28,711 nucleotides of DNA from a virus: the IMG/VR virus record IMGVR_UViG_3300033156_000253, positions 1 to 28,711 of that record. One strand, given 5' to 3'. The notes under the pieces are model-generated. The model searched no databases. It was not told the DNA's origin and worked only from the letters and a program-made list of their open reading frames with translations. Below, piece by piece: positions 2,229 to 18,542 of the stretch (positions within the stretch are counted from its first letter, which is position 1; each line of letters starts with the position of its first letter). The position numbers and the translations under genes were made by a program.

Positions 2229-2231
2229 TAG

Positions 2232-4781: not shown

Positions 4782-4793
4782 GAGGAGGAGAGC

Positions 4794-5936
4794 GTGCGCA
4801 TTTACATTGTCGCGGCGAGTGACGCAGAGCAGGACAAGGAACGGCGACTGCGCTGGGGTGACTATTGGTTCAAACAGTCGCTGGGGGCAGCGTTACAGAG
4901 CCTGGGCCACGAGATCGTCACAGACGTTATGCAGGCGCAGGCGGTTATCAACTGCCATGGCATGAGCATCGAACGGTTGCCCGAGTGGACCTACAATGTG
5001 CTGTGGATCATTGGCCATCCAGACGCGGTGACCGTGGATGAGTGCAATCAGTACGACGCGGTATTCAGCGAATCGCAGAAACTCGCGGCACACCTGCGAG
5101 AGCAGGGCGTCGACGCGCAGTGGCTGCCAGGCGCGACCGATTTCGTGCCGATGGACGTGCCGAAAACGCATAAGCGGGTGTTCGTGGGCAATGTGCGGGG
5201 CAAATCGCGTCCCTGCATTGATGCGCTAGACGGTAATTATGACGGTCTAGAGGTTTGGGGCGAGGGTTGGGATTGGCTGCCCGAAGGCGTGTGGCAAGGA
5301 CTGTATTACCCGCATGACAAACTGAACGAATTATACGCGGCTAGCGAGACGGTGCTCAATGACGTGCATGAGGACATGGCCCGTTGGGAGATGCATAATC
5401 CGCGCTACTACGACATCTTGGCCGTGGCGGGTAGACGAGTGCCGACGTTCCGCGATTGCGCCGAAAGGATTATGCGGGGTGCCTATGTCCTCAAGGGTCT
5501 CGACTTAGGTTGTGGCGCGCGCAAACGGCCCGGACTCACAGGCGTGGACCGTGTAGGCGGCGAGGACATCATCGCATGGGACCTAGAGGGCGGGCTGCCG
5601 GGCGAGATAGGGCCGCAGGACGTCATCATAGCAGACAACATCCTAGAGCACATTACCAACCTAATACTGCTCGTGAACGCCTGCCACGATGCGCTCATGC
5701 CTGATGGTCGGATGCACGTGCGCGTGCCCTCGGCCACGACATCGGCAGCATTCCAGGACCCGACACATGTGCGATATTTCGTACCTGAGACGTTTGATTA
5801 TTTCGATGTCAGTCACAATCGCTGGCAGGAGTATGGGCGGACCTATGGCATCAAACCCTGGCATATCGTGCGGCGGACAATGGACGGCGTGATGATCGAC
5901 GTGATGATGCGACCGGCGGAGGAGAAGAGGGAATGA
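4794..5936 (+). CDS. Fused CgeB-like glycosyltransferase and SAM methyltransferase
   Basis: A 380-residue two-domain enzyme with GTG start behind a strong AGGAGGAG. Residues 1-225 resemble the CgeB/GT-B glycosyltransferases: an N-terminal Rossmann strand (MRIYIVAAS), VFVGNVRGKSR at the start of the nucleotide-sugar half, WGEGWDWLP, and LYAASETVLND leading to PRYYDILAVAGRRVPTF. Residues about 233-375 are a class I methyltransferase: LDLGCGARKRPG (SAM-binding, from 236), an acid in GVDRV, and DNILEHI (about 281) with LMPDGRMHVRVP. One polypeptide could thus add a sugar and methylate a glycan. It opens a run of glycan genes and its stop overlaps the next start. Acceptor and donor are unknown. 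Confidence 0.82.
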   Translation: MRIYIVAASDAEQDKERRLRWGDYWFKQSLGAALQSLGHEIVTDVMQAQAVINCHGMSIERLPEWTYNVLWIIGHPDAVTVDECNQYDAVFSESQKLAAHLREQGVDAQWLPGATDFVPMDVPKTHKRVFVGNVRGKSRPCIDALDGNYDGLEVWGEGWDWLPEGVWQGLYYPHDKLNELYAASETVLNDVHEDMARWEMHNPRYYDILAVAGRRVPTFRDCAERIMRGAYVLKGLDLGCGARKRPGLTGVDRVGGEDIIAWDLEGGLPGEIGPQDVIIADNILEHITNLILLVNACHDALMPDGRMHVRVPSATTSAAFQDPTHVRYFVPETFDYFDVSHNRWQEYGRTYGIKPWHIVRRTMDGVMIDVMMRPAEEKRE

Positions 5937-6160
5937 ACGTCTATACTTGGCGGGTTCGGACAGGTGCTACGTGGGAGCAACCAGCACGAGAGGGCATATT
6001 GTCTGTTAAGGCAGAGGACAGACACGAAGCTCGCGATCTTGCTATAGAATTGATAGCACCAGTGATCGCACCAGAAACCAGACTCGCAGAGCAAATACGG
6101 GGTATTTATCCTAATATTGCGAATGAGCGAGCCACATTGAAATGGGATCCGATTTCATGA
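5933..6160 (+). CDS. Small hypothetical protein in the glycan cassette
   Basis: A 75-residue protein whose ATG overlaps the previous stop as ATGA; AGAAGAGGG just upstream can serve as Shine-Dalgarno. Its end overlaps the next glycosyltransferase start in the same way, so three genes are chained. The sequence opens MNVYTWRVRTG and has a helix-forming centre (VKAEDRHEARDLAIELI) suggesting a small alpha/beta fold. It carries no catalytic motif. I do not recognise the family; it resembles generic small phage proteins with a beta strand, helix and short beta tail. A partner role for the adjacent enzymes is only a guess from position. Confidence 0.6.
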   Translation: MNVYTWRVRTGATWEQPAREGILSVKAEDRHEARDLAIELIAPVIAPETRLAEQIRGIYPNIANERATLKWDPIS

Positions 6161-7053
6161 ACATCCTCATGGCATTTCTCTATAGCCCGCCGACGACAGC
6201 CTGTTATTACGCCAAAGCGTTCCGCGCGTTGGACCACGATGTGCGCACTTGGGGGCCGTCGCGGGATCTGTCGCGCCATCGTGAGGACCAACGATACCGA
6301 CTGACGGGGCCGCATATGACAGCGCCATTAGCAGATGGATGGCGACCGGATCTGTTTGTGTACATCGAGGCCGGGGCTGGATGGTTCCCGAATGATATGC
6401 CACAGCACACGATTCCGACAGTAGGCTATTTCATCGACTCACATTCACGGTTGCAGCAGCATCTAGAACGTGCGCCATATTTCGATCACGTATTCTACGC
6501 GCACAAACAATTCGCAGATGCGTTCGGGCCGGACGCGCATTGGCTACCGCTGGCCTGTGACCCAGACGTACACACGCCGACGCGCTGGCCCGATGAGCCT
6601 GAATACGACGTGGCATTTGTTGGCAACGCCTATCCCGACGTGGCGCTCTACGAGCCGCGGCGCAAAGCGCTGCGGATGCTGGCTGCGCGATATAATTGCC
6701 GATTCGTGAATGGCGTCTATTTTGGGGATATGGCGAACGTCTACGCCAACGCGCGCGTGGTGTTCAACCGCAGCGCACACGGCGATCTGAACATGCGGGT
6801 GTTCGAGGCTATATGCAGCGGGCGGCCATTGGTGACGGATTATACACACGAGAATGGTATACTGGACATGTTCGAGCCCTACGTCCATCTGATGTATTAC
6901 GAGGATCTAGACGATCTGAAGTTTACAGCAGCGGCGCTCATTAACGGTCCCCGCATGGCTCGAATGATCGGCGCAGCGGGTCGCGCAGCGGTATTGGCCG
7001 AGCATACCTACGTCCACCGCGCTCAGCAGATGCTAGCGGCGGTGGGGCTATGA
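6157..7053 (+). CDS. CgeB-like GT-B glycosyltransferase
   Basis: This 298-residue enzyme opens with MNILMAFLYSPP, a typical first strand of a GT-B fold, and has TVGYFIDSHSR with DHVFYAHKQF in the N-terminal half. The C-terminal half carries DVAFVGNAYPD (from about 151), then NRSAHGDLNMRVFEAICSGR, the region that binds the nucleotide-sugar in the Glyco_trans_1_2 (CgeB) family, and LAEHTYVHR near the end. ATG 6157 overlaps the previous stop as ATGA; ATG 6142 in frame would add five residues. It transfers a sugar from an activated donor to an unknown acceptor. It differs clearly from the other two GT-B enzymes here, so these are old paralogues rather than a recent duplication. Confidence 0.83.
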   Translation: MNILMAFLYSPPTTACYYAKAFRALDHDVRTWGPSRDLSRHREDQRYRLTGPHMTAPLADGWRPDLFVYIEAGAGWFPNDMPQHTIPTVGYFIDSHSRLQQHLERAPYFDHVFYAHKQFADAFGPDAHWLPLACDPDVHTPTRWPDEPEYDVAFVGNAYPDVALYEPRRKALRMLAARYNCRFVNGVYFGDMANVYANARVVFNRSAHGDLNMRVFEAICSGRPLVTDYTHENGILDMFEPYVHLMYYEDLDDLKFTAAALINGPRMARMIGAAGRAAVLAEHTYVHRAQQMLAAVGL

Positions 7054-7107
7054 GGCGCGCATCGAGTCTACCGGCTGGCGTTCGAAAGTGAGCCTAGAGG
7101 AGGACAC

Positions 7108-7410
7108 GTGACGTTTAAAGAGCTACTATGTGAGATATGGGCGTTGCTGCAAGAATGGTGGGGATGGAAAAGGAGCCAGCGCCGTCAGAGACACCAACAG
7201 CCGTGGGAATTGCCTCTGGAGCGACTGTCGAGGCGCATAGACGAACTAGAATCGTTGAGAACACAGGTCTCTCGCCTGGAGGGAGAGCAAGTATTCGTGC
7301 GCAAATTGGTCTCTGACAAAATGCTCACAGACCGAGAATGGCTAACCGATTTGAGCGAGGGGCAGACGCCAGAGCAAACGAGGAGGGGAGAATGCGCGAC
7401 ACAGCTCTGA
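7108..7410 (+). CDS. Small coiled-coil protein of unknown function
   Basis: A 100-residue protein with GTG start and GAGGAGG upstream (about 7097-7103). The N-terminus is Trp-rich and amphipathic (IWALLQEWWGWKR), followed by a strongly basic patch. Residues about 35-65 show leucine heptads (LERLSRRIDELESLRTQ) that predict a short coiled coil. No transmembrane segment is convincing. The 54 bases before it (7054-7107) hold nothing but the ribosome-binding site. It sits between two glycosyltransferase genes and overlaps the next small gene by 19 bases. A membrane-surface or scaffold role is conceivable, but no function can be assigned. Confidence 0.6.
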   Translation: MTFKELLCEIWALLQEWWGWKRSQRRQRHQQPWELPLERLSRRIDELESLRTQVSRLEGEQVFVRKLVSDKMLTDREWLTDLSEGQTPEQTRRGECATQL

Positions 7411-7655
7411 GCGAGCAGGGCTTGCGGGAGGAGGCCAAAATATCCCGCGCGACAATGAGAGAGGGACGGTTCCTCTTGAAAGTGCGGCGTCATCCAATCC
7501 TGGCAAAGAGCACCGAGCACAACATGTTGCTCAAAGGCGGGTTTGGAGCAATGGGTGTAGGCCGTATGTGGTGTCACGCAACCGAGCGGGAGACAGCCTC
7601 TCCCGAGTGGGGCGAACTGCCTGAGATGGAATGGGACGGGGAGATACTCGCATGA
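7392..7655 (+). CDS. Small hypothetical protein
   Basis: An 87-residue protein starting at ATG 7392 immediately after AGGAGGGGAG, the strongest ribosome-binding site in this part; upstream in-frame ATGs at 7338 and 7347 are possible but lack one. The sequence is basic in its first half (residues 10-45) and acidic at the end (EWGELPEMEWDGEI), with no known motif. Its stop overlaps the next glycosyltransferase start as ATGA. The good start signal and tight coupling argue that it is real, although composition alone would leave doubt. Confidence 0.55.
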   Translation: MRDTALSEQGLREEAKISRATMREGRFLLKVRRHPILAKSTEHNMLLKGGFGAMGVGRMWCHATERETASPEWGELPEMEWDGEILA

Positions 7656-8608
7656 GAATATTCGCCGCATTCCGACATTTCAACTGGGAGGAGCACAACC
7701 TGACACCCGCATTGCGAACATTCGGCGACGTGGTGCGCTACGACTGGCACCCGCCGTATGACCAATACGATGCTGGCTGGCACTATGGGCTAAAAGCAGC
7801 CATGAATCGCGAGATGTTGCAGCGTGTGGATGCGGCGCATAAGGAACAACCGCTAGACATATTCTACGGCTATCTATGCGGGCGGCTGGTGCATCGAGGC
7901 TATATCGAGGCACTGCGTCTCATGGGCATTCCGACGCTTAACATGACGTTGGACGACAAGACACACAGATACAGCGCGTTAGAGCCGAGTGGTTTCGCGG
8001 GTATGGTAGACATAGCGAGCGCGTTCGACCTGTGCTGGACGAGCGACCCGACGGCTGTGGAATGGTACGAGGAGCATGGCGCGAAGGCAATATACCTACC
8101 GCCGGGCGCGAACCCCGACGTGTTCAAGCCTATGGAATGCGAACGCGACATAGATGTGCTGTTCGTGGGCAAGAAATACGGGCGGCGCGAGAGCATCATC
8201 TGGCATCTGGAGCAGGCGGGGATCGATGTGCAGACTTACGGCCAGGGTTGGGAGCGCGGGCCGGTGAGCACTGAGAAAATGGTCGATCTAATGAACCGCG
8301 CGGTGATCACGCTCGGTATAGGCGAGGCGGCGGATGGCACAATATCGCTGAAAGGGCGCGATTTCGAGGCGCCGATGGCAGGCGCGTTCTACCTGGCGCA
8401 ATACAACGGTGAATTATTCGATCATTACCCTATCGACTCACTGGCAGCATGGAGAACATTGGACGATCTGATTGCGAATTGCCGATATTATCTAGCACAT
8501 CCGCATGAAGCCGAGACAATGCGCCACGCAGCAGCGAAGCACGCACGGGAACACCACACCTGGCGAGCGCGGTTCGAGACTGCATTCGAGGCGATGGGGC
8601 TGCTATGA
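7652..8608 (+). CDS. CgeB-like GT-B glycosyltransferase
   Basis: A 318-residue enzyme starting MRIFAAFRHFNWEEHNL at an ATG overlapping the previous stop. The N-terminal half has LDIFYGYLCGR and LNMTLDDKTHR. DLCWTSDPTAVEWYEEHG leads into YLPPGANPDVF, a motif typical of the CgeB/DUF3880 glycosyltransferases, and DVLFVGKKYG (about 167) begins the second Rossmann half. LKGRDFEAPMAGAFYLAQY matches the conserved donor-binding loop. It is the third GT-B gene of the cassette. Its end overlaps the methyltransferase gene as ATGA, suggesting the two are made together and may act on one glycan. Confidence 0.85.
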   Translation: MRIFAAFRHFNWEEHNLTPALRTFGDVVRYDWHPPYDQYDAGWHYGLKAAMNREMLQRVDAAHKEQPLDIFYGYLCGRLVHRGYIEALRLMGIPTLNMTLDDKTHRYSALEPSGFAGMVDIASAFDLCWTSDPTAVEWYEEHGAKAIYLPPGANPDVFKPMECERDIDVLFVGKKYGRRESIIWHLEQAGIDVQTYGQGWERGPVSTEKMVDLMNRAVITLGIGEAADGTISLKGRDFEAPMAGAFYLAQYNGELFDHYPIDSLAAWRTLDDLIANCRYYLAHPHEAETMRHAAAKHAREHHTWRARFETAFEAMGLL

Positions 8609-9267
8609 CAGATGCGCAATTGGCAGCGGGCAATCAGCGGGACGCTTGGTATTGGTCTGATTACCAGGAATACAGAGCCAGCGCTACAGAACCAGTAGTG
8701 CCAGTACGCATCCTAGACGAGCGCGCTGAGACGACGCCGGTGCATCCATTTTACTTCTACCAGGACGTATGGGCGGCGGAGCGGGTGCTGCGGGTGCGCC
8801 CCGAATGGCTGCTGGACGTAGGGGGCAGGCCGTTGCTGTTGGGAATGCTCTCGCTGTTTGTGCCAGTGACATCTGTGGAGACGCGCCCGCTGCCGGTGTC
8901 GTTGCCAAATTTGACCTGTCAGCGTGGCGACATAACCGCATTGCCATATGAGGACGATAGCGTGTCCATGGCGAGTTGTCTCAGCGTTATCGAGCATATC
9001 GGATTGGGGCGGTATGGCGACGCGATCGATCCGCATGGCAGTGAGCGGGCATGCCACGAATTGCAGCGGGTACTAGAGCCTGGCGGCCACCTGCTCCTCA
9101 GCACGCCCGTAGCTGACGAGCCGGTGACGCTGTTCAACGCGCACAGACTATTGAGCTGCGAGCAGGTGCGCAGTTGGCTCGATGAATGCGATTTGGTGGG
9201 CGGCATTGAGGTGAGAAACGACAATATGACCGTTTGGTGCGCGGAGTTCGTGAAGCATGACGGCTGA
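8605..9267 (+). CDS. DUF268-type SAM-dependent methyltransferase
   Basis: The 220-residue protein has a class I methyltransferase layout: LLDVGGR at the first strand, TSVETRPL with an acid at the second, GDITALPYEDDSV, and SCLSVIEHIGLGRYGD followed by RVLEPGGHLLLS. The EHIGLGRYGD block and the later NAHRLLS are signatures of the DUF268 family, whose members occur in polysaccharide loci. It probably methylates a sugar hydroxyl or a related glycan group. The start ATG overlaps the preceding glycosyltransferase stop. With the fused methyltransferase at 4794 there are two methyltransferase domains in this cassette. A role in DNA methylation is unlikely because no target-recognition domain or DPPY/PC motif is present. 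Confidence 0.82.
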   Translation: MTDAQLAAGNQRDAWYWSDYQEYRASATEPVVPVRILDERAETTPVHPFYFYQDVWAAERVLRVRPEWLLDVGGRPLLLGMLSLFVPVTSVETRPLPVSLPNLTCQRGDITALPYEDDSVSMASCLSVIEHIGLGRYGDAIDPHGSERACHELQRVLEPGGHLLLSTPVADEPVTLFNAHRLLSCEQVRSWLDECDLVGGIEVRNDNMTVWCAEFVKHDG

Positions 9268-9400: not shown

Positions 9401-9454
9401 CAGCCCCGACCGATTGGCAGTACACAGGTCCTGCTGATTGAGCGGGGCTGTTTT
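9401..9454 (+). terminator. Long-loop hairpin with T-tract before the capsid gene
   Basis: CAGCCCCG (9401-9408) pairs perfectly with CGGGGCTG (9443-9450) and is followed at once by TTTT. The 34-base loop contains a further four-base pairing (GCAG 9417-9420 with CTGC 9431-9434). Just upstream GCGGC (9384-9388) and GCCGC (9395-9399) form another small hairpin. It may be a leaky terminator after the glycan cassette or a processing/stability element at the 5' end of the capsid message. The loop is long for a classical terminator. Confidence 0.45.
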
Positions 9455-9479
9455 AGTTGAAGAGCTAGGAGCGATAGCA

Positions 9480-11666
9480 ATGCCTTGGAAGGTGTTCGAG
9501 AGAGATGATGAATGGTGCGTGTACAGGATTGATGAGGATGGCGATGCCGTTGGCGAGACATTGGGCTGCCACGATAGCAAGGAGAAGGCGCAGCGACAGG
9601 TAGCAGCGCTCTACGCCAGCGAGCCGGAGGCGCAGAGCAAGGCCATTACGAAACGCGAGTCGGATGGAGAGCATCCGGCCTCGCATTATCTGGTCGTGGA
9701 GGACCCAAAGTCGCCCAGCACCTGGCATCTGCGCGTGCGCGACGCGAGTGGCAAACTCGATCACCGCCTGATGGGTGCGGCATGGGCCGCGCTGCATGGC
9801 GGTTACAGGGGCAATCGTTACGAGGGCCCGAACAAACGGGAGGCTATATCGAAATTGCGTGCTCTGTACGAGCGAGAAGATATGCCAATACCTGGCGGCA
9901 AGGCGCTGATGGTCAAAGCCACAGACAATGGCTATACGCTCGGCGGTTGGGGCGTTGTCTACGGGAGCATAGACCTAGAGGGCGAGCGATTCGTACCGGA
10001 GACCGATTTCTGGTTCGATAAATTGACGCGAACGCCGCCGGTACTGTACCAACATGGTATGGACGCGAAAGCCGCGCGGCAGGTGCTGGGCAAGGCAATG
10101 GTCGATGAGCGCGATATCGGAGTTTGGGTAGAGACACAAATTGCGCTGTCTAATGAATACGCAGAGGCCATACGCCAATTGGCTGAGGAGGGGCGGCTCG
10201 GCTGGTCCTCTGGTGCGGTTGGACATCTCGTAGAACGAGATGGGGCGACGATCACATCGTGGCCTATCGCTGAATTCAGCCTTACGCCGACACCGGCGGA
10301 ACCGCGCACGCTGGGCGTGAGTGAATTGCGGGTACTGGCTGCCACTGAGCCTGCGGTCAAGGCGTTACTGCCAGAGGATGGCGGGGAGCCATCGGCAGAC
10401 GCGACTACGGCGAAACAGGCGGCCCAAACGATAAGCGTAACAGATAGGACACAGGAGATAGAGATGGTTGACAAGGAAAATAATTCTACGGAGGCCCAGG
10501 AACAAAAAACCCTGGACCCTGCCGTCTTCGCTGAGGCGGCAATGAACAAGTTTAGGGCATTGCTCGAAAATGAGCCAGCCCTCAGGAGGGCGTTTTACGA
10601 TACCCCCACAGACAAAGATCACCCCGAGGTGAAATCGTTCGGGAACTGGCTCCTCGCGGTTCAGAACGGCGACGAAAAACGACTGAAATCGGTTTACGAC
10701 TCGCGGAAGGATCTGGCGGAGGGCGTCGGCAGTAGCGGCGGATATCTGGTACCGCCCGAATACTCGCAGGACATTCTGCGGCTGGCAGTCGAGATGTCTG
10801 TCGTTCGTCCGCGTGCCAGGGTTATCCCGATGCGGGGGCGCGAATGGAACGTGCCGTCGCTGGACTATACCGGCAGTACGGCAGGCAAACCGCCACAACT
10901 CGCTGGTGTCGTAGCAACCTGGACAGAAGAGGGCAGCGAGAAAACGGAGACGGAACCCACGTTTCGCACGATCAAGCTGATGTACCACGAATTGTCGGGG
11001 TACACACAGGCCACAAATATGCTGAGGCAGGATGCAGGCCCGACGCTAGAGGCCACACTGCGGCAGCTATTCGCAGAGGCAGTCAGCTGGTACGAGGATT
11101 GGGCGTTTCTGCGTGGCGACGGTGCGGGTAAACCGCTCGGCGTGTTCAACGCGAACTGTCTGTTGACAGAGGCTGCTGGCGCGAGCACATGTGTGCTGAG
11201 CGATCTCGCCAACATGATGACGAAGTTTTTGAATAGGCCGAACGATGTTGGCCCATATGGTGGCGCGGTCTGGGTGATGCATCCTGAGATGCTGCCGTAT
11301 CTGATTGCGCTGGCTGATGGCGCGGCCAATACGAACAACATCATCTGGATCCAGGGCGCGAGCCAGAAACAACCGGCCACCCTGTTCGGCATCCCGATCG
11401 TCTGGACAGAAAAAATGCCGAGAATTCCGCAGGCGGCCGCGGCTGCGAACAAGGGCGGGATTCTGCTTGCTGATTTCAGCTACTACCTGATTGGCACGCG
11501 CAATCAGCTGGCGATCGATTTCAGCGAACATTATGCGTTCACCGAGAACAAAGGCACTTGGAGATTTTGCGACTATGTGGATGGCCAGCCCTGGTTGACG
11601 CAGGCGGTATATCGTGCGGACGGTAGCAATACCTGCTCGCCGTTCGTAACGCTGAGCGGCGCATAG
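9480..11666 (+). CDS. Prohead protease - major capsid protein fusion
   Basis: One 728-residue frame holds four parts. Residues 1-48 form a small domain (PWKVFERDDEWCVY... CHDSKEKA) and 65-135 a WHLRV...DHRLMGAAWAALH domain, both often found ahead of phage proteases. Residues about 140-285 are an HK97-type prohead protease with His192 (LYQHGMD), Ser243/244 (LGWSSGAVGH) and IAEFSLTPTPAEP (Glu265), matching the His-Ser-Glu set. From Met329 follows a charged delta-like segment (about 85 residues) and an HK97-fold capsid protein starting near SGGYLVPPEYS. The start ATG has AGGAG eight bases upstream. Usually protease and capsid are separate genes; here no stop lies between them, but a strong internal start exists at 10464. 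Confidence 0.9.
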   Translation: MPWKVFERDDEWCVYRIDEDGDAVGETLGCHDSKEKAQRQVAALYASEPEAQSKAITKRESDGEHPASHYLVVEDPKSPSTWHLRVRDASGKLDHRLMGAAWAALHGGYRGNRYEGPNKREAISKLRALYEREDMPIPGGKALMVKATDNGYTLGGWGVVYGSIDLEGERFVPETDFWFDKLTRTPPVLYQHGMDAKAARQVLGKAMVDERDIGVWVETQIALSNEYAEAIRQLAEEGRLGWSSGAVGHLVERDGATITSWPIAEFSLTPTPAEPRTLGVSELRVLAATEPAVKALLPEDGGEPSADATTAKQAAQTISVTDRTQEIEMVDKENNSTEAQEQKTLDPAVFAEAAMNKFRALLENEPALRRAFYDTPTDKDHPEVKSFGNWLLAVQNGDEKRLKSVYDSRKDLAEGVGSSGGYLVPPEYSQDILRLAVEMSVVRPRARVIPMRGREWNVPSLDYTGSTAGKPPQLAGVVATWTEEGSEKTETEPTFRTIKLMYHELSGYTQATNMLRQDAGPTLEATLRQLFAEAVSWYEDWAFLRGDGAGKPLGVFNANCLLTEAAGASTCVLSDLANMMTKFLNRPNDVGPYGGAVWVMHPEMLPYLIALADGAANTNNIIWIQGASQKQPATLFGIPIVWTEKMPRIPQAAAAANKGGILLADFSYYLIGTRNQLAIDFSEHYAFTENKGTWRFCDYVDGQPWLTQAVYRADGSNTCSPFVTLSGA
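10464..11666 (+). CDS. Major capsid protein from an internal in-frame start
   Basis: ATG 10464 is in frame with the larger fusion and is preceded by AGGAG (10453-10457) with six bases of spacing. Initiation here gives a 400-residue HK97-type capsid protein: a highly charged N-terminal segment (residues 1-85, delta domain equivalent), then SGGYLVPPEY, a region with HELSGYTQATNML, WAFLRGDGAGKPLGV and a C-terminal half with IVWTEKMP and GTWRFCDYVDGQP. A capsid needs hundreds of shell subunits but few proteases, so this start would supply most of the coat protein. It is inferred from sequence, not shown to be used. Confidence 0.72.
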   Translation: MVDKENNSTEAQEQKTLDPAVFAEAAMNKFRALLENEPALRRAFYDTPTDKDHPEVKSFGNWLLAVQNGDEKRLKSVYDSRKDLAEGVGSSGGYLVPPEYSQDILRLAVEMSVVRPRARVIPMRGREWNVPSLDYTGSTAGKPPQLAGVVATWTEEGSEKTETEPTFRTIKLMYHELSGYTQATNMLRQDAGPTLEATLRQLFAEAVSWYEDWAFLRGDGAGKPLGVFNANCLLTEAAGASTCVLSDLANMMTKFLNRPNDVGPYGGAVWVMHPEMLPYLIALADGAANTNNIIWIQGASQKQPATLFGIPIVWTEKMPRIPQAAAAANKGGILLADFSYYLIGTRNQLAIDFSEHYAFTENKGTWRFCDYVDGQPWLTQAVYRADGSNTCSPFVTLSGA

Positions 11667-11683
11667 GCAGGAGGTAAATAACC

Positions 11684-12142
11684 ATGGAACGACTGACAGA
11701 ACGAATCAAAATCGTTGATACCGTTACCACGAGCAAGTGTTTGCAGAGCGGCTCAGCGATGACGTGCACGATCGACATGGCGCTGTTCAGGCGCATGATG
11801 GTGATCGCGCAGGCGCTAAGCACGAAAGAGACCACAACTGTGCCACACGCCACCATCAAAATCCTCGATAGCACGGCGAAGGGCACGGCCACGGGTACAG
11901 CGATCGTGACCAATACGATCATGTGCCAGACGGCGGGATTCGCACGGACCAAGATTTTCGAGGTAACAAGCGACCAGTTGGGCAAAAATGTCAGTAGCGG
12001 CGAGCTGACCACACGAGGGCGCTATGCGCGCGTGCGGGCCGTATATGGTACACGCGCTACGCAGGTATCTCTCGTGCTGATCGGGGCGGACCCGCGGTTT
12101 GGGCCACAGTCCAATACCGTGACCACCACGGCGGCGAGTTGA
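11684..12142 (+). CDS. Putative virion protein after the capsid gene
   Basis: A 152-residue protein with a good start signal (AGGAGGT before ATG 11684). It is rich in Thr, Ala and Val, beta-forming, with two Cys in the first 30 residues and a third near residue 80. Phage genes at this place usually encode head decoration or stabilising proteins, and the composition fits such a soluble beta-rich protein, but I recognise no family. It lies 17 bases after the capsid stop and is followed by a 61-base gap with a perfect hairpin. A role as decoration protein is inference from position only. Confidence 0.7.
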   Translation: MERLTERIKIVDTVTTSKCLQSGSAMTCTIDMALFRRMMVIAQALSTKETTTVPHATIKILDSTAKGTATGTAIVTNTIMCQTAGFARTKIFEVTSDQLGKNVSSGELTTRGRYARVRAVYGTRATQVSLVLIGADPRFGPQSNTVTTTAAS

Positions 12143-12160
12143 TAGTCGATAGTGGGGACA

Positions 12161-12183
12161 GGGCGGGTGCTCGTGACCCGCCC
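12161..12183 (+). other. Intercistronic RNA hairpin
   Basis: GGGCGGGT (12161-12168) and ACCCGCCC (12176-12183) form a perfect 8-bp, very GC-rich stem with a seven-base loop. GGGG at 12154-12157 and CCCC at 12188-12191 could extend it. No T-run follows, so it is more likely an mRNA-stability or processing element in the capsid transcript than a classical terminator. The next ribosome-binding site (AGGAGA, about 12192) lies just beyond it and could be partly masked. Confidence 0.5.
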
Positions 12184-12203
12184 ATAGCCCCAGGAGAGAT
12201 GTT

Positions 12204-12590
12204 ATGACACTAGATTTCAAAACACAACACGAGGCGGCGGACGATCAATATGCGACTGTGAAAATAGTCAACATCATTGCCACCGGCACACAGAGCACGG
12301 TTGCGTATCTCGACGGTAAGAGCCCGATACGGCTGCTCATGCCTGCTGGCTGGTCGAGTACTGCCGTAATCGTGCACGTCGATGTGTCAGAGGACGGCAC
12401 GAATTTTTTGCCCCTCTGGGATGGCGGCACAGCATATACCGTCGCAGTGGAGGCGAGCCAGGCCGTCGCCGTTGATCCGACTAAGTTCTGGGGCACGGGG
12501 TATGTCCGGCTTCTCGGGACGACGGCGAAAGGGACGGCGGTTGCGCAGACCACGGCGTGCAGCGTGAGCGTTGTGACCAGATTGATCTAG
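12204..12590 (+). CDS. Putative virion protein, beta-sandwich type
   Basis: A 128-residue protein with ATG 12204 after AGGAGA. The middle pattern, LLMPAGWSSTAVIVHVDVSEDGTNFLPLWD followed in the chain by a Val/Ala strand and AVDPTKFWGTGYVRLL, is a familiar one in small phage proteins encoded near capsid genes (a hydrophobic P-x-W strand, SxDGxxF, then AVDPxxF). The fold is probably an all-beta sandwich. These proteins are unnamed and probably structural; their location on the particle is not established. No signal peptide or membrane segment is present. Confidence 0.68.
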   Translation: MTLDFKTQHEAADDQYATVKIVNIIATGTQSTVAYLDGKSPIRLLMPAGWSSTAVIVHVDVSEDGTNFLPLWDGGTAYTVAVEASQAVAVDPTKFWGTGYVRLLGTTAKGTAVAQTTACSVSVVTRLI

Positions 12591-12600
12591 GAGAGTACAG

Positions 12601-13011
12601 ATGGCACTGAATCCGAAAATATCGTATGTAGCCGCTAATCTCGCAGTGGACGCGGTGGTAGATACGCTCGACAATGGCCTATTGCGCATCTACGACGGCA
12701 CGCAGCCGAACAGTTGCAATAGCGCCGTAACGACGCAAGTTAAGCTCGCCGGGCTTACATTCGGCTCGCCCGCGTTCGGTGATAGCACCGCTGGCGTCGC
12801 CACAGCGAATGCAATCACAAAGGACGACGCCGCCGACGCGAAAGGAACGGCGTCCTGGTTCCGCGCACTTCAGCCTGCGGGCAATACCGCCATGTTCGAC
12901 GGCAGCGTGGGCACGGCGGACGCGAATATCGTGCTCAACAGCGTGAGCATTCAGACGGGCGCCGAGGTGAGCGTAACGGCATTGACTTACACGCAGCCAA
13001 CGACCGCATAG
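12601..13011 (+). CDS. Putative virion protein of a widespread phage family
   Basis: A 136-residue protein with ATG 12601 following AGGAGAGTACAG. The sequence LDNGLLRIYDGTQPNS, then ATANAITKDDAADAKGTASWFRAL and FDGSVGTADANIVLNS, matches a pattern I recognise from many uncharacterised phage head-region proteins. It is Ala/Thr-rich, predicted beta, with no enzymatic motif. Together with its neighbours at 11684, 12204 and 13024 it forms a block of small proteins between capsid and connectors; a virion role is likely but its exact place is unknown. Confidence 0.7.
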   Translation: MALNPKISYVAANLAVDAVVDTLDNGLLRIYDGTQPNSCNSAVTTQVKLAGLTFGSPAFGDSTAGVATANAITKDDAADAKGTASWFRALQPAGNTAMFDGSVGTADANIVLNSVSIQTGAEVSVTALTYTQPTTA

Positions 13012-13023
13012 CGAGGAGGCCCT

Positions 13024-13536
13024 GTGAAAGTAGTCAAAGTCAAAGTACGCAGGGGCGGGCCTGGCGAAGATATGATGGTCTACCCCGACGCAGCACATGG
13101 TGGACCGTATGATTCAAACGAGGTTGACCGTGTGGGTATCGGCCCGCGCATGAGTGGCGGCATGTGCGCTTACTCTGGTGACATCGGCAAAGGCGGTGAC
13201 TACGAGTATTGCCTCATCGTTCTACCCGACGAACTGGCTGAAACCTATGCCGAACATCCCGATATGGAGATCATCACGGAGAGCGAGGCTGACGCGTTAC
13301 AGGCCGACTGGCGTGTAACGCAGGGTATGCCGGAGGAACGGCTCGACGAGACAGCGAAAGCCAAGGCCGATTTGTACGAGGCCAAAGTGAATGCGGGACT
13401 GAGCCTGTCACAAGAAGAGGCTGACGATCTCGCTGCGCTCAAGGTGACCAAACCGACGTTAGAGGCCATGGCGGATATCATTGCTAAGCGCGAGGCCAAG
13501 TCCGCCGCGTTCGACGAGGGGAAGATCAAACCGTGA
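13024..13536 (+). CDS. Hypothetical protein with charged helical C-terminus
   Basis: A 170-residue protein with GTG start after GAGGAGG. The first 80 residues are mixed and begin MKVVKVKVRRGG; the last 80 are acidic and helix-forming (ETAKAKADLYEAKVNAG, then SQEEADDLAALK). Such a tail suits a protein that binds other virion parts or acts as a scaffold. I do not recognise the family. Its stop overlaps the start of the GT-A glycosyltransferase gene by four bases (GTGA), tying it to that enzyme in translation. Confidence 0.62.
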   Translation: MKVVKVKVRRGGPGEDMMVYPDAAHGGPYDSNEVDRVGIGPRMSGGMCAYSGDIGKGGDYEYCLIVLPDELAETYAEHPDMEIITESEADALQADWRVTQGMPEERLDETAKAKADLYEAKVNAGLSLSQEEADDLAALKVTKPTLEAMADIIAKREAKSAAFDEGKIKP

Positions 13537-14129
13537 GCGAGTCGCATGTGCTGATTTCGGGCACTTGCGTTCACACCACTATGCCAGAGCCGCTGATGTG
13601 GGCGCATCGGCAGGTCTTGCGGGGAAAACCGCGTTGCGTGCTCGATTTCTTCCGTGAGAAGAAGACGCTCGTACACGCACGTAATATGCAGGTGTGGCGC
13701 TTTCTGGAGACACCGTGTACGCATCTGTTCATCCTAGATAGCGATGCGGTGCCTCCCGAAGGCTGCTTGCTGCGGATGACGGCAATGGACGTGCCCCTCG
13801 TGGCCGCGCCGCACATGACGCAGATAGGCGACGAAACTGGGCCGATGGTGCTGGACGCGACTGAGAATCAGTTTGAATACGTGCAGCATAGGCCGTGGAC
13901 CGGTATGCAGCCATGCCAGGCTGTCGGTTGTGCTGGAATGCTCATACGACGCGATGTGCTAGAGGCTATCGAGCCTCCCTGGTTCATGACTGAATATGAC
14001 GAAAGGGGACTGCTAAAGAGTAGCGAGGATTTCTACTTCTGCCGCAAGTTCCTAGATGCGGGGTACGAGGTGGTGTGGGCAGACTTCGACTCGTTACAGC
14101 GCCACTGGATGGGGCGGTGGGTGACGTAG
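13533..14129 (+). CDS. GT-A (GT2-like) glycosyltransferase
   Basis: A compact 198-residue enzyme. Residues 63-75 read THLFILDSDAVPP, with the metal-binding DxD (Asp69-Ser70-Asp71) of GT-A glycosyltransferases. VGCAGMLIRRDVLEAI and PPWFMTEYDE with a following SSEDFYFCRK contain the acidic residues expected near the acceptor and catalytic base. It lacks the usual N-terminal VTIPVYN strand and is short, so it may be a minimal version. It is a paralogue of the enzyme at 15962. GTG 13533 overlaps the previous stop. It ends one base before the repeat-protein gene, which makes that protein an attractive acceptor candidate. Confidence 0.78.
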   Translation: MSESHVLISGTCVHTTMPEPLMWAHRQVLRGKPRCVLDFFREKKTLVHARNMQVWRFLETPCTHLFILDSDAVPPEGCLLRMTAMDVPLVAAPHMTQIGDETGPMVLDATENQFEYVQHRPWTGMQPCQAVGCAGMLIRRDVLEAIEPPWFMTEYDERGLLKSSEDFYFCRKFLDAGYEVVWADFDSLQRHWMGRWVT

Positions 14130-14130
14130 T

Positions 14131-15075
14131 ATGGCTGGGAATGTAATCAGTGCTGACGACTTGGCAGACAGGCTCTACAAACATAGTGGTTTCTCATCGA
14201 CCATAACGAGTAGTTATGACACCCCAGGCGCTAGTTGTCAGGGCATTACTTGGGATGGGACAAATGTACTTAGTGCTGACGACGGCCTACATAAACACTA
14301 CAAGCACGAAGGTTTCTCGTCAACTATTACGAGTAGTTATGCTAGTCCGAGTAGCGCCCCCACTGGCATCACCTGGGACGGGACAAATGTACTTAGTGCT
14401 GACTCTACCGCCGGCAGGCACTACAAACACTCTGGCTTCTCATCGACCATAACAGATAGTTATGATAGCCCAGGTAATCGCCCAGAGGGCATCACCTGGG
14501 ATGCGAGGTATGCGGGTGCGCCCGCCATCACAGGCACTGGCACATTCGCCACACAGCCAATCACGATTGCTGGCACCGGCACATATACCCCACTAGCGAT
14601 CACCGGTACGGCCACAATTGCCGCGCAGCCTGCCGCAATCGCAGGTACAGGTACCTACACACCGCTCGCGATAACTGGGACGGGTAGCGTCACAACACAG
14701 GCGGTCACGATAGCAGGGACTGGCACCTATACACCGTTGGCAGTTACGGGAACGGGTGCAGTCGCAGTGCAGCCAGCGGCCATTGCGGGTACGGGCACGG
14801 TAGGCACAACGGCAATCACTGGCACTGGCGCAGTAGTAGTGCAGCCCGTCACGATAGCAGGCACAGGGACCTATACGCCACTAGCGATCACGGGCACGGG
14901 CGGCGTCATTGCCCAACCGATGCAGATTGCCGGCGTGGGCATGACGACAGGTGTCCTCGCGCGGCTGGCGATTACGATTGCCGCGCGCTATATGGCGGGG
15001 ATAGAGGATGCGCCACGGTATAACGTCGGGATTGCGGACGCGGCGCGATATAACGTGTCGATAGAGGACGAGTAA
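14131..15075 (+). CDS. Triple-repeat virion protein (propeller-like and Thr/Gly repeats)
   Basis: The 314-residue protein is almost entirely repeats. Residues 4-126 are three 41-residue units with the core YKHSGFSSTIT, SY..P, GITWDGTNVLSAD, a pattern known from phage fibre-like and beta-propeller-like proteins. Residues 133-276 are six exact-period 24-residue units (ITGTG....QP..IAGTGTYTPLA). Residues 285-314 are three 10-residue ARYNVGIEDA units. There is no signal peptide and only two Cys-poor regions. A surface fibre or spacer role fits. The many Thr and Ser could be glycosylation targets of the adjacent enzymes, but this is inference. The next gene's ATG follows the stop directly. Confidence 0.82.
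   Translation: MAGNVISADDLADRLYKHSGFSSTITSSYDTPGASCQGITWDGTNVLSADDGLHKHYKHEGFSSTITSSYASPSSAPTGITWDGTNVLSADSTAGRHYKHSGFSSTITDSYDSPGNRPEGITWDARYAGAPAITGTGTFATQPITIAGTGTYTPLAITGTATIAAQPAAIAGTGTYTPLAITGTGSVTTQAVTIAGTGTYTPLAVTGTGAVAVQPAAIAGTGTVGTTAITGTGAVVVQPVTIAGTGTYTPLAITGTGGVIAQPMQIAGVGMTTGVLARLAITIAARYMAGIEDAPRYNVGIADAARYNVSIEDE
14140..14508 (+). repeat. Three 123-bp coding repeats (41 residues each)
   Basis: Units at 14140-14262, 14263-14385 and 14386-14508 show the same spacing of YKH (residues 16, 57, 98) and SAD (about 7, 48, 89). The nucleotide copies are related but diverged, mainly at third positions, so the protein repeat appears to be under selection. Confidence 0.85.
14527..14958 (+). 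repeat. Six 72-bp coding repeats (24 residues each)
   Basis: ITGTG or VTGTG starts recur at residues 133, 157, 181, 205, 229 and 253, an exact 24-residue period. Each unit has a QP in the middle and IAGTG after it. The fifth and sixth units vary most. The nucleotide copies use different synonymous codons, which argues against very recent expansion. Confidence 0.9.
14983..15072 (+). repeat. Three 30-bp coding repeats (10 residues each)
   Basis: ARYMAGIEDA, PRYNVGIADA and ARYNVSIEDE form the last 30 residues of the repeat protein, each encoded by about 30 bp. A weaker copy (ARLAITIA) precedes them. Confidence 0.8.
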
Positions 15076-15366
15076 ATGGCAAACACCTACGACTCTGGCG
15101 ATCAGATACGGATTACGGCAACATTCACCAATAGTACCAGTACGACGGTAGACCCGACTGTTATCACCTGCAAACACAAAAATCCTAGCGGGACTATGAC
15201 CACACTCGTATATGGCGAGGACGCCATCACGCGCAGCACGCGAGGGACGTATTACACCGATGTGACGCTGGACGAGACGGGTACTTGGTATGTGCGTTGG
15301 GAAGGGACGGGCGCGGCGGTAGCGGCAGCTGAGTCCTATTGGGTCGTGCGGGAGAGTGAGTTCTGA
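15076..15366 (+). CDS. Small Ig-like phage protein
   Basis: A 96-residue protein whose ATG follows the preceding TAA without a gap. The pattern YDSGDQIRITATFTN, then DPTVITCKHKNPSG and a final TWYVRWEGTGA...SYWVVRESEF matches a family of about 100-residue Ig-like proteins common near phage head-tail connectors or tail fibres. It is all-beta with a single Cys. It could be a small decoration or adaptor protein; no function has been established for the family to my knowledge. Confidence 0.7.
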   Translation: MANTYDSGDQIRITATFTNSTSTTVDPTVITCKHKNPSGTMTTLVYGEDAITRSTRGTYYTDVTLDETGTWYVRWEGTGAAVAAAESYWVVRESEF

Positions 15367-15367
15367 C

Positions 15368-15949
15368 ATGGGATATGTGACAGTAGCGCAGTTCAAACAG
15401 TATCGAAAAATCACATCCTCGGCAGACGACGTGCTCATCGGCGACATCATCGACCGTGCTACGGCGCAGATCGAGACATACTGCGACCGCATATTCGTGG
15501 CACCCACCACGGCAGCAACGCGGTATTTCGATGCTGTGCGGGACACGTCCGATGACCGCAAGATACTCTACCTGGATGACGATCTAGCCACTATCGTCAC
15601 GATCGTCAACGGCGACGACGAGACGATAGCCTCGACGCACTATGTGCCCGTGCCGCGACATGAGACGCCGTACTGGGCTATTCGGCTCACGGGGCTCGCA
15701 GACACACTCTGGACATATGAGGACGCCCCAGAGGATGCCATCGAGGTGAACGGACGGTGGGGATACGCCACGAGCGCACCAGCCGATATCCAACACGCGA
15801 CGATACGGCTGGCGGCGTATCTGTATGCACAGAAAGACGCATCGGTGTTCGACGTCACGATGATGCCGGGCCAGGGCGTGATGACCGTACCACAGGGATT
15901 CCCGCGCGATGTGCGCGAGATATTGGAGCCATATAAGAAGCTACGTTAG
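15368..15949 (+). CDS. Head-tail connector protein, gp6-like
   Basis: A 193-residue protein (ATG 15368, two bases after the previous stop; GTG 15356 would add four residues). The opening VTVAQFKQYRKI with an SADDVLIGDIIDRATAQIE helix, a YCDRIF motif, then a beta region, RWGYATSAPADIQHAT and a final helix with VREILEPYKKLR fit the gp6-like connector family. These proteins form a ring beneath the portal and join the head to the tail. The position before the tail-completion and tail-tube genes agrees. Confidence 0.82.
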   Translation: MGYVTVAQFKQYRKITSSADDVLIGDIIDRATAQIETYCDRIFVAPTTAATRYFDAVRDTSDDRKILYLDDDLATIVTIVNGDDETIASTHYVPVPRHETPYWAIRLTGLADTLWTYEDAPEDAIEVNGRWGYATSAPADIQHATIRLAAYLYAQKDASVFDVTMMPGQGVMTVPQGFPRDVREILEPYKKLR

Positions 15950-15961
15950 GAGGAGGAGAGA

Positions 15962-16759
15962 GTGGGGGAGGAGAGACGAGAAGACGGTTACATACGGGAG
16001 GATTGGGCGCACGGTTCCGTAGAGCGGCGTCTGCTACCAGAGCCGCGCGGTGTCCCGCTTCTCACGCCAACCGACAAGAATATACGCGTCCTCTGGGGTA
16101 TTCCCATGGAACGCACACTGAATCAATATGCGTTTTTCGGGTTCGCCAAAATCCTAACTCAGGGCTGGACGCTCGCAGAATTGCAATATACCAGAAACGA
16201 CATAGCGCGATGCAAATTTACGGATTATCTGCTCAAAGATGATAGATATACGCACCTAATCATGCTCGACAGCGATCACGTGCACCCGCCGACGATAATC
16301 CAACGACTCGCGCGCTGGTTTCAGGCATATCCGAAACAGGTACAGGTAGTGGGCGGGCTCAATTTTCGGCGTGGGGAGCCGTACGATCCATGCGCGTTTA
16401 TAGACCCTGGTGACGGCCATTTCCGCCGTATAGCAGAATGGCCACGCGGAGCGATGGAGGTCGAAGCGCTCGGCACAGGCAGCATTATGATCGCACGCGA
16501 AGTGTTTGACACGATGAGCCCGCCCTGGTTCGGCTACGACTACGACAACAACTATGGCGATTGGCCGGGCACGGATATGTGGTTCAGCGCGGAATGCCGC
16601 AAACGAGGCATCACACTCTGGTGCGATACCACGACGACGAGTCCGCATATCGGGCACAAATTGATCGACGGCACTGATTATGCACAGTGGACAGAGGAGA
16701 ATGTGAAAGATGCGAGTGGCGCTGATCCGGCCGGCCAGTCCATTTCTCTCGGTATCTGA
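15962..16759 (+). CDS. GT-A (GT2-like) glycosyltransferase, second copy
   Basis: A 265-residue enzyme with GTG start and AGGAGGAGAGA immediately before it. Residues 97-110 read THLIMLDSDHVHPP with the DxD metal site (Asp103-Ser-Asp105). GTGSIMIAREVFD and PPWFGYDYD, then TDMWFSAECRKRG, correspond in order to the same blocks in the enzyme at 13533, so the two are paralogues; this one has a longer N-terminus. It interrupts the connector-tail-completion series, which suggests insertion of a glycosylation gene into a standard virion module. Donor and acceptor are unknown. Confidence 0.82.
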   Translation: MGEERREDGYIREDWAHGSVERRLLPEPRGVPLLTPTDKNIRVLWGIPMERTLNQYAFFGFAKILTQGWTLAELQYTRNDIARCKFTDYLLKDDRYTHLIMLDSDHVHPPTIIQRLARWFQAYPKQVQVVGGLNFRRGEPYDPCAFIDPGDGHFRRIAEWPRGAMEVEALGTGSIMIAREVFDTMSPPWFGYDYDNNYGDWPGTDMWFSAECRKRGITLWCDTTTTSPHIGHKLIDGTDYAQWTEENVKDASGADPAGQSISLGI

Positions 16760-16786
16760 GGCGCGATACAAAATGAGGATAGCAGC

Positions 16787-17230
16787 ATGAGCACGATTGC
16801 AGAGATAGCGGCGGCACTGCAAACGCTCCACGCTGGCATTAGCGGCGTCGGTTCGGCACCTACGGCAATGCCGAGCAATCTGGACCAGACGACGTTGCCA
16901 GTAGCATTGGTGTGGCCGGGCGAGGCGACCTGGACTCTGCACGCCATAGGGCTCCATCGTCAGGATCGCACCTACATCGTGCGCGTGTTCGTGGCCCCGG
17001 TCGCGCAGGGGATCGCGGGGCCGGACGAGGGCTATCAGGAGTGCATGACACTGATGGAGGCGTTTGGGCAGGCGTACATCGACGATCCGACGCTGGGCGA
17101 CGTTGTGGATCATATCACGGACATTGCCGATAGCGGCGTCTCGGGTGGCGGCATGGAGTTGGGCTGGGGCAACACAGCATATTGGGGTTTCGTGTTTCGC
17201 ATACGGATAGCCGAGAAAACAGCGGCATAG
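16787..17230 (+). CDS. Putative tail-completion / tail-terminator protein
   Basis: A 147-residue protein with ATG 16787 after GAGGATAG. It begins with a helix (IAEIAAALQTLHAGI), then LPVALVWPGEATWTL, DRTYIVRVFVAPVAQG, a middle helix (YQECMTLMEAFGQAYI) and a final beta strand (YWGFVFRIRIAEK). This alpha-beta-alpha-beta order is that of small tail-terminator proteins that cap the tail tube, and the position directly before the tail-tube gene supports it. The family resemblance is structural in style rather than a clear sequence match. Confidence 0.6.
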   Translation: MSTIAEIAAALQTLHAGISGVGSAPTAMPSNLDQTTLPVALVWPGEATWTLHAIGLHRQDRTYIVRVFVAPVAQGIAGPDEGYQECMTLMEAFGQAYIDDPTLGDVVDHITDIADSGVSGGGMELGWGNTAYWGFVFRIRIAEKTAA

Positions 17231-17240
17231 GAGAGTAACG

Positions 17241-18242
17241 ATGGCAGGTATTCGAGCATTGCGCAAAATCCAACTGGGTTTGGAGGCGACTAATACGCCA
17301 GGGGCGGCAGTAGTTGCCGATACGATTTGGCGCGGCACGGGCACGCTAGAGGACCAGCGCGAGACGGTGTTCCCAGAAGAGGATATCGGCTTCGTGGGCG
17401 GCGTGGACAGATCCTATGTCCCCCGTCTGGCTGCGGCCCTCGACATGGACGAGGTTGAGGCGACTTACGAGCAGCTGCCGATTCTGCTGACGTGCTGTTT
17501 CAGTGAAGACGCAGATCCTACGAGTACGGACGGTTCGGGGCAGGTGTACTCGTTTGCCATGTCCACATCGACGACGAATACCATCAACACCGCCACGATC
17601 GAGATGGGCGACAACCAACGGGCCGACGAGATGGAATACGCCTATGTCGAGAGTATGCGTCTCAGCGGGGTGGCGGGCGAAGCTGTCAAAATGAGCGCGA
17701 ATTGGCGCGGGCGACAGGCCAACGATTGTGAATTCACTACGTCGATTTCACTCACGCCGGTCAGCGAGATTCTGTTTGGCGAGGGTAAACTGTACATCGA
17801 CGCCGTGGCCACGGCACCGGGCACAACCGTGGTCAGCGCCTCCCTCGTGGGCATGGACCTGGACATCAATAGCGGGCTCACGCCGATCTATACTGATGGC
17901 GATCAACTCTATTTCGATCATCTGCGTCGTGACCGACCGGAAATCACCGCCGACCTGACGTTCGAGCATAATGCGTCTGCGGAGGCCCAGATCACTGCTT
18001 GGCGCGCGGGCACACCGAAGGTGGTTCGCATCGAGTGGCGGGGGCCAACGCTGAATACCGCTGGCAGTACCTATACGGCGAAAACCGTCATTGTCGATCT
18101 GGCGGGTAAGTGGGAATCGTTCTCGAAACTCGATGAGCAAGATGGCAACGATGTGGTAACGGGTACGTTCCGCGCCCGCTGGAATTCTACGGCGGCACTG
18201 TTCGCGGAGGTGACCGTCGTTAACGAAATCAGCGGCCTGTAA
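17241..18242 (+). CDS. Major tail (tube) protein
   Basis: A 333-residue protein with ATG 17241 after AGGAGAG. It opens MAGIRALRKIQLGLEA and shows long beta stretches, with LAAALDMDEVEATYEQL and an LTPVSEILFGEG turn, then DLTFEHNASAEAQITAWRAG, a pattern seen in large siphovirus tail-tube subunits. The size suggests the tube domain plus extra loops. Position before the tail chaperone and the tape measure gene is diagnostic. No Ig-like C-terminal domain is evident. Confidence 0.8.
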   Translation: MAGIRALRKIQLGLEATNTPGAAVVADTIWRGTGTLEDQRETVFPEEDIGFVGGVDRSYVPRLAAALDMDEVEATYEQLPILLTCCFSEDADPTSTDGSGQVYSFAMSTSTTNTINTATIEMGDNQRADEMEYAYVESMRLSGVAGEAVKMSANWRGRQANDCEFTTSISLTPVSEILFGEGKLYIDAVATAPGTTVVSASLVGMDLDINSGLTPIYTDGDQLYFDHLRRDRPEITADLTFEHNASAEAQITAWRAGTPKVVRIEWRGPTLNTAGSTYTAKTVIVDLAGKWESFSKLDEQDGNDVVTGTFRARWNSTAALFAEVTVVNEISGL

Positions 18243-18260
18243 ACAGAGAGAGGAGGAGGG

Positions 18261-18542
18261 ATGCGCGAATTGCATTTCAATGTCAATCTAGACCAGGCGG
18301 CGGATCTGGAAGTCGACACCGTGCTGGCTCTGCAGGATGGCGAATTGCCATTGCGTGCGGCGCGCGACATGGTGCTAACGTTCATGGTCGATGAGGACGG
18401 TCAGCCGCTCTCGCGCGACGAGGCGTTGGAGCGGATCAAACACATCACGGTGCGCGAGCTGACCGCCGCGGCGGTGGAAATGGCGCGCCTCATGGAGGCC
18501 GATGCACTCCCCCCAGACTCCGGCGACGCATCATCGCCATAG
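18261..18542 (+). CDS. Tail assembly chaperone, short form (G-like)
   Basis: A 93-residue protein with a very strong AGGAGGAGGG directly upstream of ATG 18261. It is acidic and helical (ARDMVLTFMVDEDG, DEALERIKHITVRELTAAAVEMARL). It lies between tail-tube and tape measure genes, the place of lambda gpG and its equivalents. Near its end the codons CTC CCC CCA contain the heptamer CCCCCCA (18509-18515), where ribosomes can move to the -1 frame and make a longer protein. The short form is the normal termination product at TAG 18540-18542. Confidence 0.82.
   Translation: MRELHFNVNLDQAADLEVDTVLALQDGELPLRAARDMVLTFMVDEDGQPLSRDEALERIKHITVRELTAAAVEMARLMEADALPPDSGDASSP

Follow-up and report, generated by a model that had tools for sequence, protein, structure and literature searches.

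The window, by which we mean the whole stretch of DNA analyzed here, is an entire IMG/VR record of 28,711 bases. An accessory block at 12590-15367, delimited by a close relative that has an empty site at this position, lies among genes for a portal protein, head proteins, a protease-capsid fusion, a connector and tail proteins. The fusion is a 742-aa protein (9438-11666) whose single frame matches PHROGs for both a head maturation protease and a major head protein. A run of methyltransferase-like and glycosyltransferase (GT) genes (4794-9267), within which 6142-7053 and 7631-8608 match Glyco_trans_1_2, separates the head genes from the major capsid gene, and a 503-aa protein at 26743-28254 matches metallo-endopeptidase and endolysin PHROGs in its N-terminal part and continues in a long C-terminal part of another type. 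The accessory block encodes, all on the plus strand, a 136-aa virion structural protein (12601-13011; phrog_3758, E 2.6e-29), a 170-aa protein that we call X (13024-13536; recognized by an iterated HMM), a GT2-like GT of 198 aa with conserved Asp69, Asp71 and Asp166 (13533-14129; assigned by a weak Pfam match and residue conservation), a 314-aa repeat protein with an ATG start (14131-15075), and a 96-aa protein (15076-15366) that looks Ig-like by eye only and has no significant Pfam match. A head-tail connector (15356-15949; phrog_442, E 4.5e-22) flanks the block on the same strand and is not part of it, and a second GT homologue follows at 15962-16759. The repeat gene thus has GT genes on both sides, as an earlier note on this DNA had observed: the upstream one ends one base before the ATG and the downstream one starts 886 bases past the stop.

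The same note had described the 314-aa protein as three different tandem repeats with almost no unique sequence, and both points were borne out by self-identity. Three 41-aa units (residues 3-125; 14137-14505) are followed by six 24-aa units forming a Thr/Gly-rich stalk (residues 131-274; 14521-14952) and by three C-terminal 10-aa units (residues 285-314; 14983-15072), the only spacers being residues 126-130 and 275-284. Every period exceeds the values from 1000 shuffles, with self-identities of 0.61 at lag 41 (shuffled, at most 0.28), 0.62-0.65 at lags 24 and 48 (at most 0.365) and 0.44 at lag 10 (at most 0.35), the last being the weakest of the three signals. The 41-aa units keep an exact period with pairwise amino acid identities of 63-68%; the 24-aa unit consists of two related 12-mers, and the sixth copy is the most degraded. 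Codons often differ between units at equal amino acids (14 of 18 in the first two 24-mers), and no exact repeat within the ORF is longer than 24 nt. The repeats are therefore old, and a simple assembly collapse is unlikely; a strain chimaera is possible. The frame is intact, and the elements at the start and end of the blade set are retained. Homologues with other unit numbers, for which the note had proposed a search, were also found: L003, a close relative from the first scan with the same gene order, counts five units of 41 aa and eight of 24 aa, so that the window copy is shorter by two units of each kind.

The fold of the 41-aa block was modeled from this five-unit relative. AlphaFold2, run with a 56-sequence alignment (A3; 56 of 58 domains, the first two L033 propellers being left out), gave a pLDDT of 95.5 and a pTM of 0.90 for the L003 domain, with 20 strands, four per 41-aa unit. 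The best VIA-align matches to this model were glutaminyl cyclases (2faw, Z 19.6; 3mbr, Z 19.5), the top one with 190 aligned residues, an rmsd of 2.6 and 8% identity, followed by NHL domains (Z about 18) and Pizza designs. Glutaminyl cyclases are five-bladed propellers. We read the 41-aa unit, on the basis of this model, as a predicted four-stranded blade and the five-unit L003 domain as a predicted five-bladed propeller, which answers the question of propeller or beta-solenoid raised earlier in favor of the propeller and rules out a solenoid for the 41-aa block of the five-unit relative. The window protein itself was modeled from only 8 aligned rows (pLDDT 48), so a comparison with the L003 model would not be fair. 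It has three units instead of a complete blade set, and we regard it as a member of the blade family that is not expected to be a closed three-blade monomer. Three-blade fragments of another propeller are reported to form closed oligomeric rings in the laboratory (PMC6805158).

A scan with the 41-aa unit alignment found 60 viral loci and six loci in bacterial or archaeal genomes. X and GT are present in three of the six (L064, L066 and L068), whose records are titled Deltaproteobacteria bacterium, uncultured bacterium and Candidatus Latescibacterota (chromosome), respectively. L063 is truncated by a contig edge, and L065 and L067 belong to a divergent class. Among 42 complete dereplicated proteins, a count that leaves out duplicates, open-ended proteins and the 12 loci of the divergent class, 30 have five blades, seven have ten and three have 15, so that 40 of 42 are multiples of five and only the window protein (three) and L042 (two, in a truncated gene) are not. 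The divergent class (L016, L029, L043, L049, L053, L065, L067 and duplicates) was set aside by eye before counting and has 3 to 13 units, mostly weak, by the same unit HMM. Searching from X or GT led to four more complete propellers (two in L071, and those of L084 and L091), all of them five-bladed. In L042 (7977-8261), X and GT are present and the propeller gene is cut after two blades, giving way to unrelated sequence; in L021 (7950-8609), the propeller forms the C-terminus, not the N-terminus, of a 1060-aa protein. A tblastn search of 50,697 phage records found no match for the window protein, for the L003, L026 and L012 propellers or for the L026 GT, and no isolated phage with the protein. 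PHROG 9255, whose function is not annotated, weakly matches 29 of the 56 domains (best E 9e-8). WD40 is absent from the 18 Pfam families found for these domains, and structural WD40 matches do occur; a PDB profile search with the domains returned TRIM3 alone (E 0.41).

The window GT matches Pfam Glyco_trans_2_3 at E 2.3e-4, with 21.5 bits lying below the curated cut-off of 27, and six of its 40 relatives match Glyco_tranf_2_3 (best E 2.6e-7); a PDB profile search with the family gave no match at E 0.001. Across 40 sequences, Asp69 and Asp166 are invariant and Asp71 is conserved in at least 90%, and the GT of L091 is an exception in having no second Asp of the DxD motif, which we take to be Asp69/Asp71. 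As a pattern of residues, these aspartates would fit a GT-A enzyme. Protein X has no PHROG match in 34 sequences, a weak Pfam match in one of 34, and no useful family or PDB match. Its alignment (A6) holds 34 of 36 listed proteins, without L015 (partial) and L027 (the listed ORF is not X), and the X proteins of L012 and L018 are absent from the list of 36.

Both X and GT lie within 2 kb of 41 of the 48 unique five-blade-class proteins, which were found by the blade motif alone and exclude the window. Among the other seven, the GT is elsewhere in the same record in L011, L028 and L050, and was not found in L021, L030 and L040 (contigs of 8.6-9.2 kb) or in L063, which starts at a contig edge and in whose MAG it was not found either. 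In contrast, none of the seven unique propellers of the divergent class, which carry a WDGT motif and served as the negative class, has X or GT nearby, and their whole records contain no GT match. The difference between 41 of 48 and 0 of 7 indicates that X, GT and propeller form a conserved phage cassette. In the window, the three genes are adjacent on one strand (13024-15075). The iterated GT HMM recovered 49 GT ORFs, and the iterated X HMM, started from the 170-aa protein of the window, 47 ORFs from 47 loci, of which 45 stand immediately before a GT. In the reverse direction, a scan with X gave 14 loci: all those checked with the blade HMM have a propeller gene beside the GT (L071/L080 with two propellers, L081, L084, L091, and the truncated L042/L089), and the remaining ones are on contigs already known to carry a propeller. 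The neighbor listing lacks L051 and L057, in which a simple gene caller missed the propeller. Our searches of an open-access literature library turned up no description of such a cassette. What is new in the locus is the conserved cassette, present in the window in a contracted form, and not the three-block layout itself.

The cassette is not a fixed part of these genomes. The close relative with the empty site, L069, matches window positions 11201-12589 at 93.0% and 15368-18328 at 91.0%, the matches lying 11 nt apart, which means that the phrog_3758 protein, X, GT, the repeat protein and the 96-aa protein are all missing; the connector there directly follows g12204. L069 nevertheless keeps a 94% identical copy of the GT at 15962, so the downstream GT is not part of the cassette, and the connection that had been drawn between it and the repeat gene is lost. 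The phrog_3758 protein has HMM matches in ten propeller loci beyond L003, two of which are mutual duplicates. The 96-aa gene is ruled out as a fixed fourth member, the HMM finding only the L003 copy. In L071, an otherwise unrelated phage, 10.6 kb share with the window only the X-GT-propeller stretch at positions 13025-14503, at 78% nucleotide identity. L071 carries two tandem cassettes (2213-7704), arranged propeller-X-GT and then X-GT-propeller, and the second differs from the window unevenly, with identities of 89% for X and 91% for GT but 61% for the propeller. On the evidence of these matches, the cassette is accessory and exchanged between phages.

Pairwise distances across 32 cassettes are correlated (X-GT 0.71, X-propeller 0.71, GT-propeller 0.66; none of 999 permutations as high), partly because the cassettes split into two types. 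Within the 11 type-a cassettes, the correlation is 0.65 for X-GT (1/999 permutations), 0.345 for GT-propeller (47/999) and rho 0.09 for X-propeller (278/999); within the 21 type-b cassettes, it is 0.33 (11/999), 0.31 (53/999) and 0.38 (2/999), respectively. Since type a has a weak GT-propeller and no X-propeller correlation, GT and propeller are not strictly co-inherited. By these distances, the association of X with GT in type a is tighter than that of either protein with the propeller.

The stalk is the variable part of the architecture. Its Ser+Thr content ranges from 12% to 81% across relatives, and in 14 complete proteins fewer than 75 aa follow the last blade; 13 of these proteins are GT-linked, and the other is that of L021 (8.9-kb contig, no GT). 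Thus, stalks are exchangeable, and the GT has as its conserved partner the propeller or some feature that all have in common. The earlier note had proposed the Thr/Gly block as a glycan acceptor beside the GT. The link to the upstream GT is real, and it holds across highly divergent phages, but its partner is the 41-aa propeller block; as a conserved or general acceptor, the Thr/Gly block is excluded by the 13 stalkless GT-linked relatives. A scan with the 24-aa unit found eight loci, one of them the L003 contig, and TGTG-type repeats without 41-aa units occur in five of the six loci that were read (L073, L074, L077, L078, L079); in the sixth, L075, the wrong frame was taken and gives no result. 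We take the 24-aa block, from this distribution, as a putative stalk module that phages reuse. Two other GT-linked propellers have stalks of a different kind, poly-Ser with 81% Ser+Thr in L066 (7962-10709) and Ser/Thr-rich in L068 (7866-12383), the latter within a 4.3-Mb Candidatus Latescibacterota chromosome record. The L084 propeller makes up the N-terminal end of a protein of 1319 aa with matches to minor tail protein (E 2.7e-38) and to central tail fibre J (E 2.3e-18), and genes for portal, major head, tail and tape measure proteins are found among the neighbors of propeller loci. Given the L084 fusion, the surface fibre suggested in the note is a plausible reading of these genes. A Ser or Thr stands directly after the loop Phe in 294 of 298 pattern-matched blades; it is a candidate acceptor, and a structural reason for its conservation is equally possible.

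Variation within the blades is concentrated in two loops. Per-site statistics cover pattern-matched units of one length (76 type-b, 29/33 type-a). In values taken within proteins and pooled over units, the C-D core has a pN of 0.12 and a pN/pS of 0.17-0.26, as against 0.40-0.55 and 0.67-0.80 in loops BC and DA, where pS is near saturation. The B segment has a pN of 0.09-0.17; that of the A segment is 0.08 in type a and, at 0.29, fairly high in type b. From the topology, with its antiparallel strands, BC and DA would lie on the same face of the propeller. Positive selection is not proven, since loop pN/pS is not above 1. In L005, loop codon changes did not look adenine-restricted by eye; five blades there (7998-8648) share about 60 identical nt per core and differ in their loop codons, a picture of recent homogenization with loop variation. 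Between the window and L003, the blades show no one-to-one correspondence, and blade pN is 0.17-0.26 versus 0.010-0.066 in nine shared neighbor genes, at overlapping pS. At the sequence level, the propeller diverges far faster than the neighbor genes.

We suggest, with somewhat better than even confidence, that the window protein is a contracted member of a five-bladed propeller family with a dedicated GT and X, and that it is a predicted variable adhesin of the virion. An exchangeable stalk, or fusion to tail proteins, would display the propeller on the virion, where its variable face would bind a ligand of the host surface or the environment, probably a glycan. Blades may duplicate, be deleted and recombine while the binding loops diversify. 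The GT might modify the virion adhesin itself, perhaps at the near-invariant Ser/Thr of the opposite-face loop in every blade, and X may be a virion partner or adaptor. The window copy would either close its propeller as an oligomer or be decaying. It would be tempting to go further and to see in the locus a mobile cassette in which GT and X glycosylate the conserved face of each blade while shuffled blades and mutated loops diversify the other face. Such a cassette would be a phage counterpart to the variable propellers of fungal NLRs, and the window form would assemble as an oligomer. This full version is speculative, and we hold it, taken as a whole, to be rather unlikely.

A possible decay of the window copy leads to the most serious alternative, namely that the three-blade gene is a degraded or mis-assembled one without function and that only the five-blade relatives work. 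The counts in multiples of five, the poor model of the three-unit form from its 8 rows and the existence of a second truncated copy, in L042, all speak for it, whereas the intact frame with its retained blade ends, the absence of exact repeats longer than 24 nt and the precedent of three-blade fragments that close as oligomers (PMC6805158) speak against it; we lean against this reading and give it considerable weight. A different target for the enzyme can also be imagined, with the GT modifying the host envelope for receptor masking or superinfection exclusion and the propeller serving as the matching receptor-binding protein, their specificities changing together. The pairing of a GT2-like enzyme with a variable propeller would suit such a scheme. 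However, the GT has only about 200 aa and sits among virion genes, an unsystematic look noticed no membrane partner genes beside it, and matched specificities should co-change, while in L071 the propeller has moved to 61% identity with X and GT still at 89-91%. We therefore consider modification of the host envelope unlikely.

Also, the Thr/Gly 24-aa block could be the glycan acceptor, as a mucin-like fibre to which the propeller is incidental. Stalks of mucin-like composition do exist (Ser+Thr of 81% in L066, 49% in L052 and 31% in L068), but other stalks are poor in Ser/Thr (12-20%), the 24-aa repeat type occurs without a propeller, and the 13 stalkless relatives keep their GT, which leaves this account quite improbable. 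A role for the cassette outside adhesion, as a module with enzyme or sensor function, is suggested by glutaminyl cyclases being the best structural matches; yet these matches have 7-11% identity, the comparison was of the fold alone, which is common to many functions, and the variable loops are the two on the top face. We regard such a module as very improbable. If the preferred reading, a variable virion adhesin with its own GT and X, holds, an adhesin kit that can be exchanged and that brings its own sugar-transferring enzyme is common to many uncultivated phages, which would be a testable case of enzyme and substrate traveling together. It would also provide a natural series of 3, 5, 10 and 15 blades for studying the growth and shrinkage of repeat proteins, and a context for protein family X, which has no PHROG match.

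Several known systems resemble parts of this cassette. The five-unit phage model shares its fold with the designed Pizza and WRAP proteins and with natural NHL and WD40 propellers, for which self-assembly from partial blades is reported (PMC7337062), but the phage-domain profile finds only TRIM3 (E 0.41) in the PDB. Lectin propellers of Streptomyces umbrella particles are described as diversified, five-bladed in some families and specific for surface glycans (PMC13274773), and fragments of tachylectin-2 as oligomerizing into five-bladed rings (PMC6805158); unlike these, the phage propeller has no sequence match to five-bladed propeller lectins in the PDB. In fungi, the high-internal-conservation WD40 repeats of HNWD proteins (HET-D/HET-E) are reported to be homogenized by recombination, to change in unit number and to be hypervariable at a few positions of one interaction face (PMC12222747, PMC4986451). 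The phage blades, which vary in two loops and in unit number, work like these NLR propellers, though we do not place them in that family: their blade sequence differs, with WD40 absent from the Pfam matches, they come five to a propeller, they are encoded in phage structural regions and paired with GT and X, and their loop pN/pS is not above 1. On virions, carbohydrate-binding modules of the 936 lactococcal phages and the receptor-binding tentaclins diversified by DGRs (PMC6669499, PMC10743442) are, like the predicted adhesin here, accessory binding domains, some of them hypervariable. The descriptions of them that we consulted mention no linked GT and X, and an unsystematic look noticed no retroelement in our loci. 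Finally, GT genes of mycobacteriophages have been suggested to glycosylate the capsid (PMC11256854); the target proposed in that account is a capsid protein, whereas in our cassette a single family of GTs is linked to a single family of propellers.
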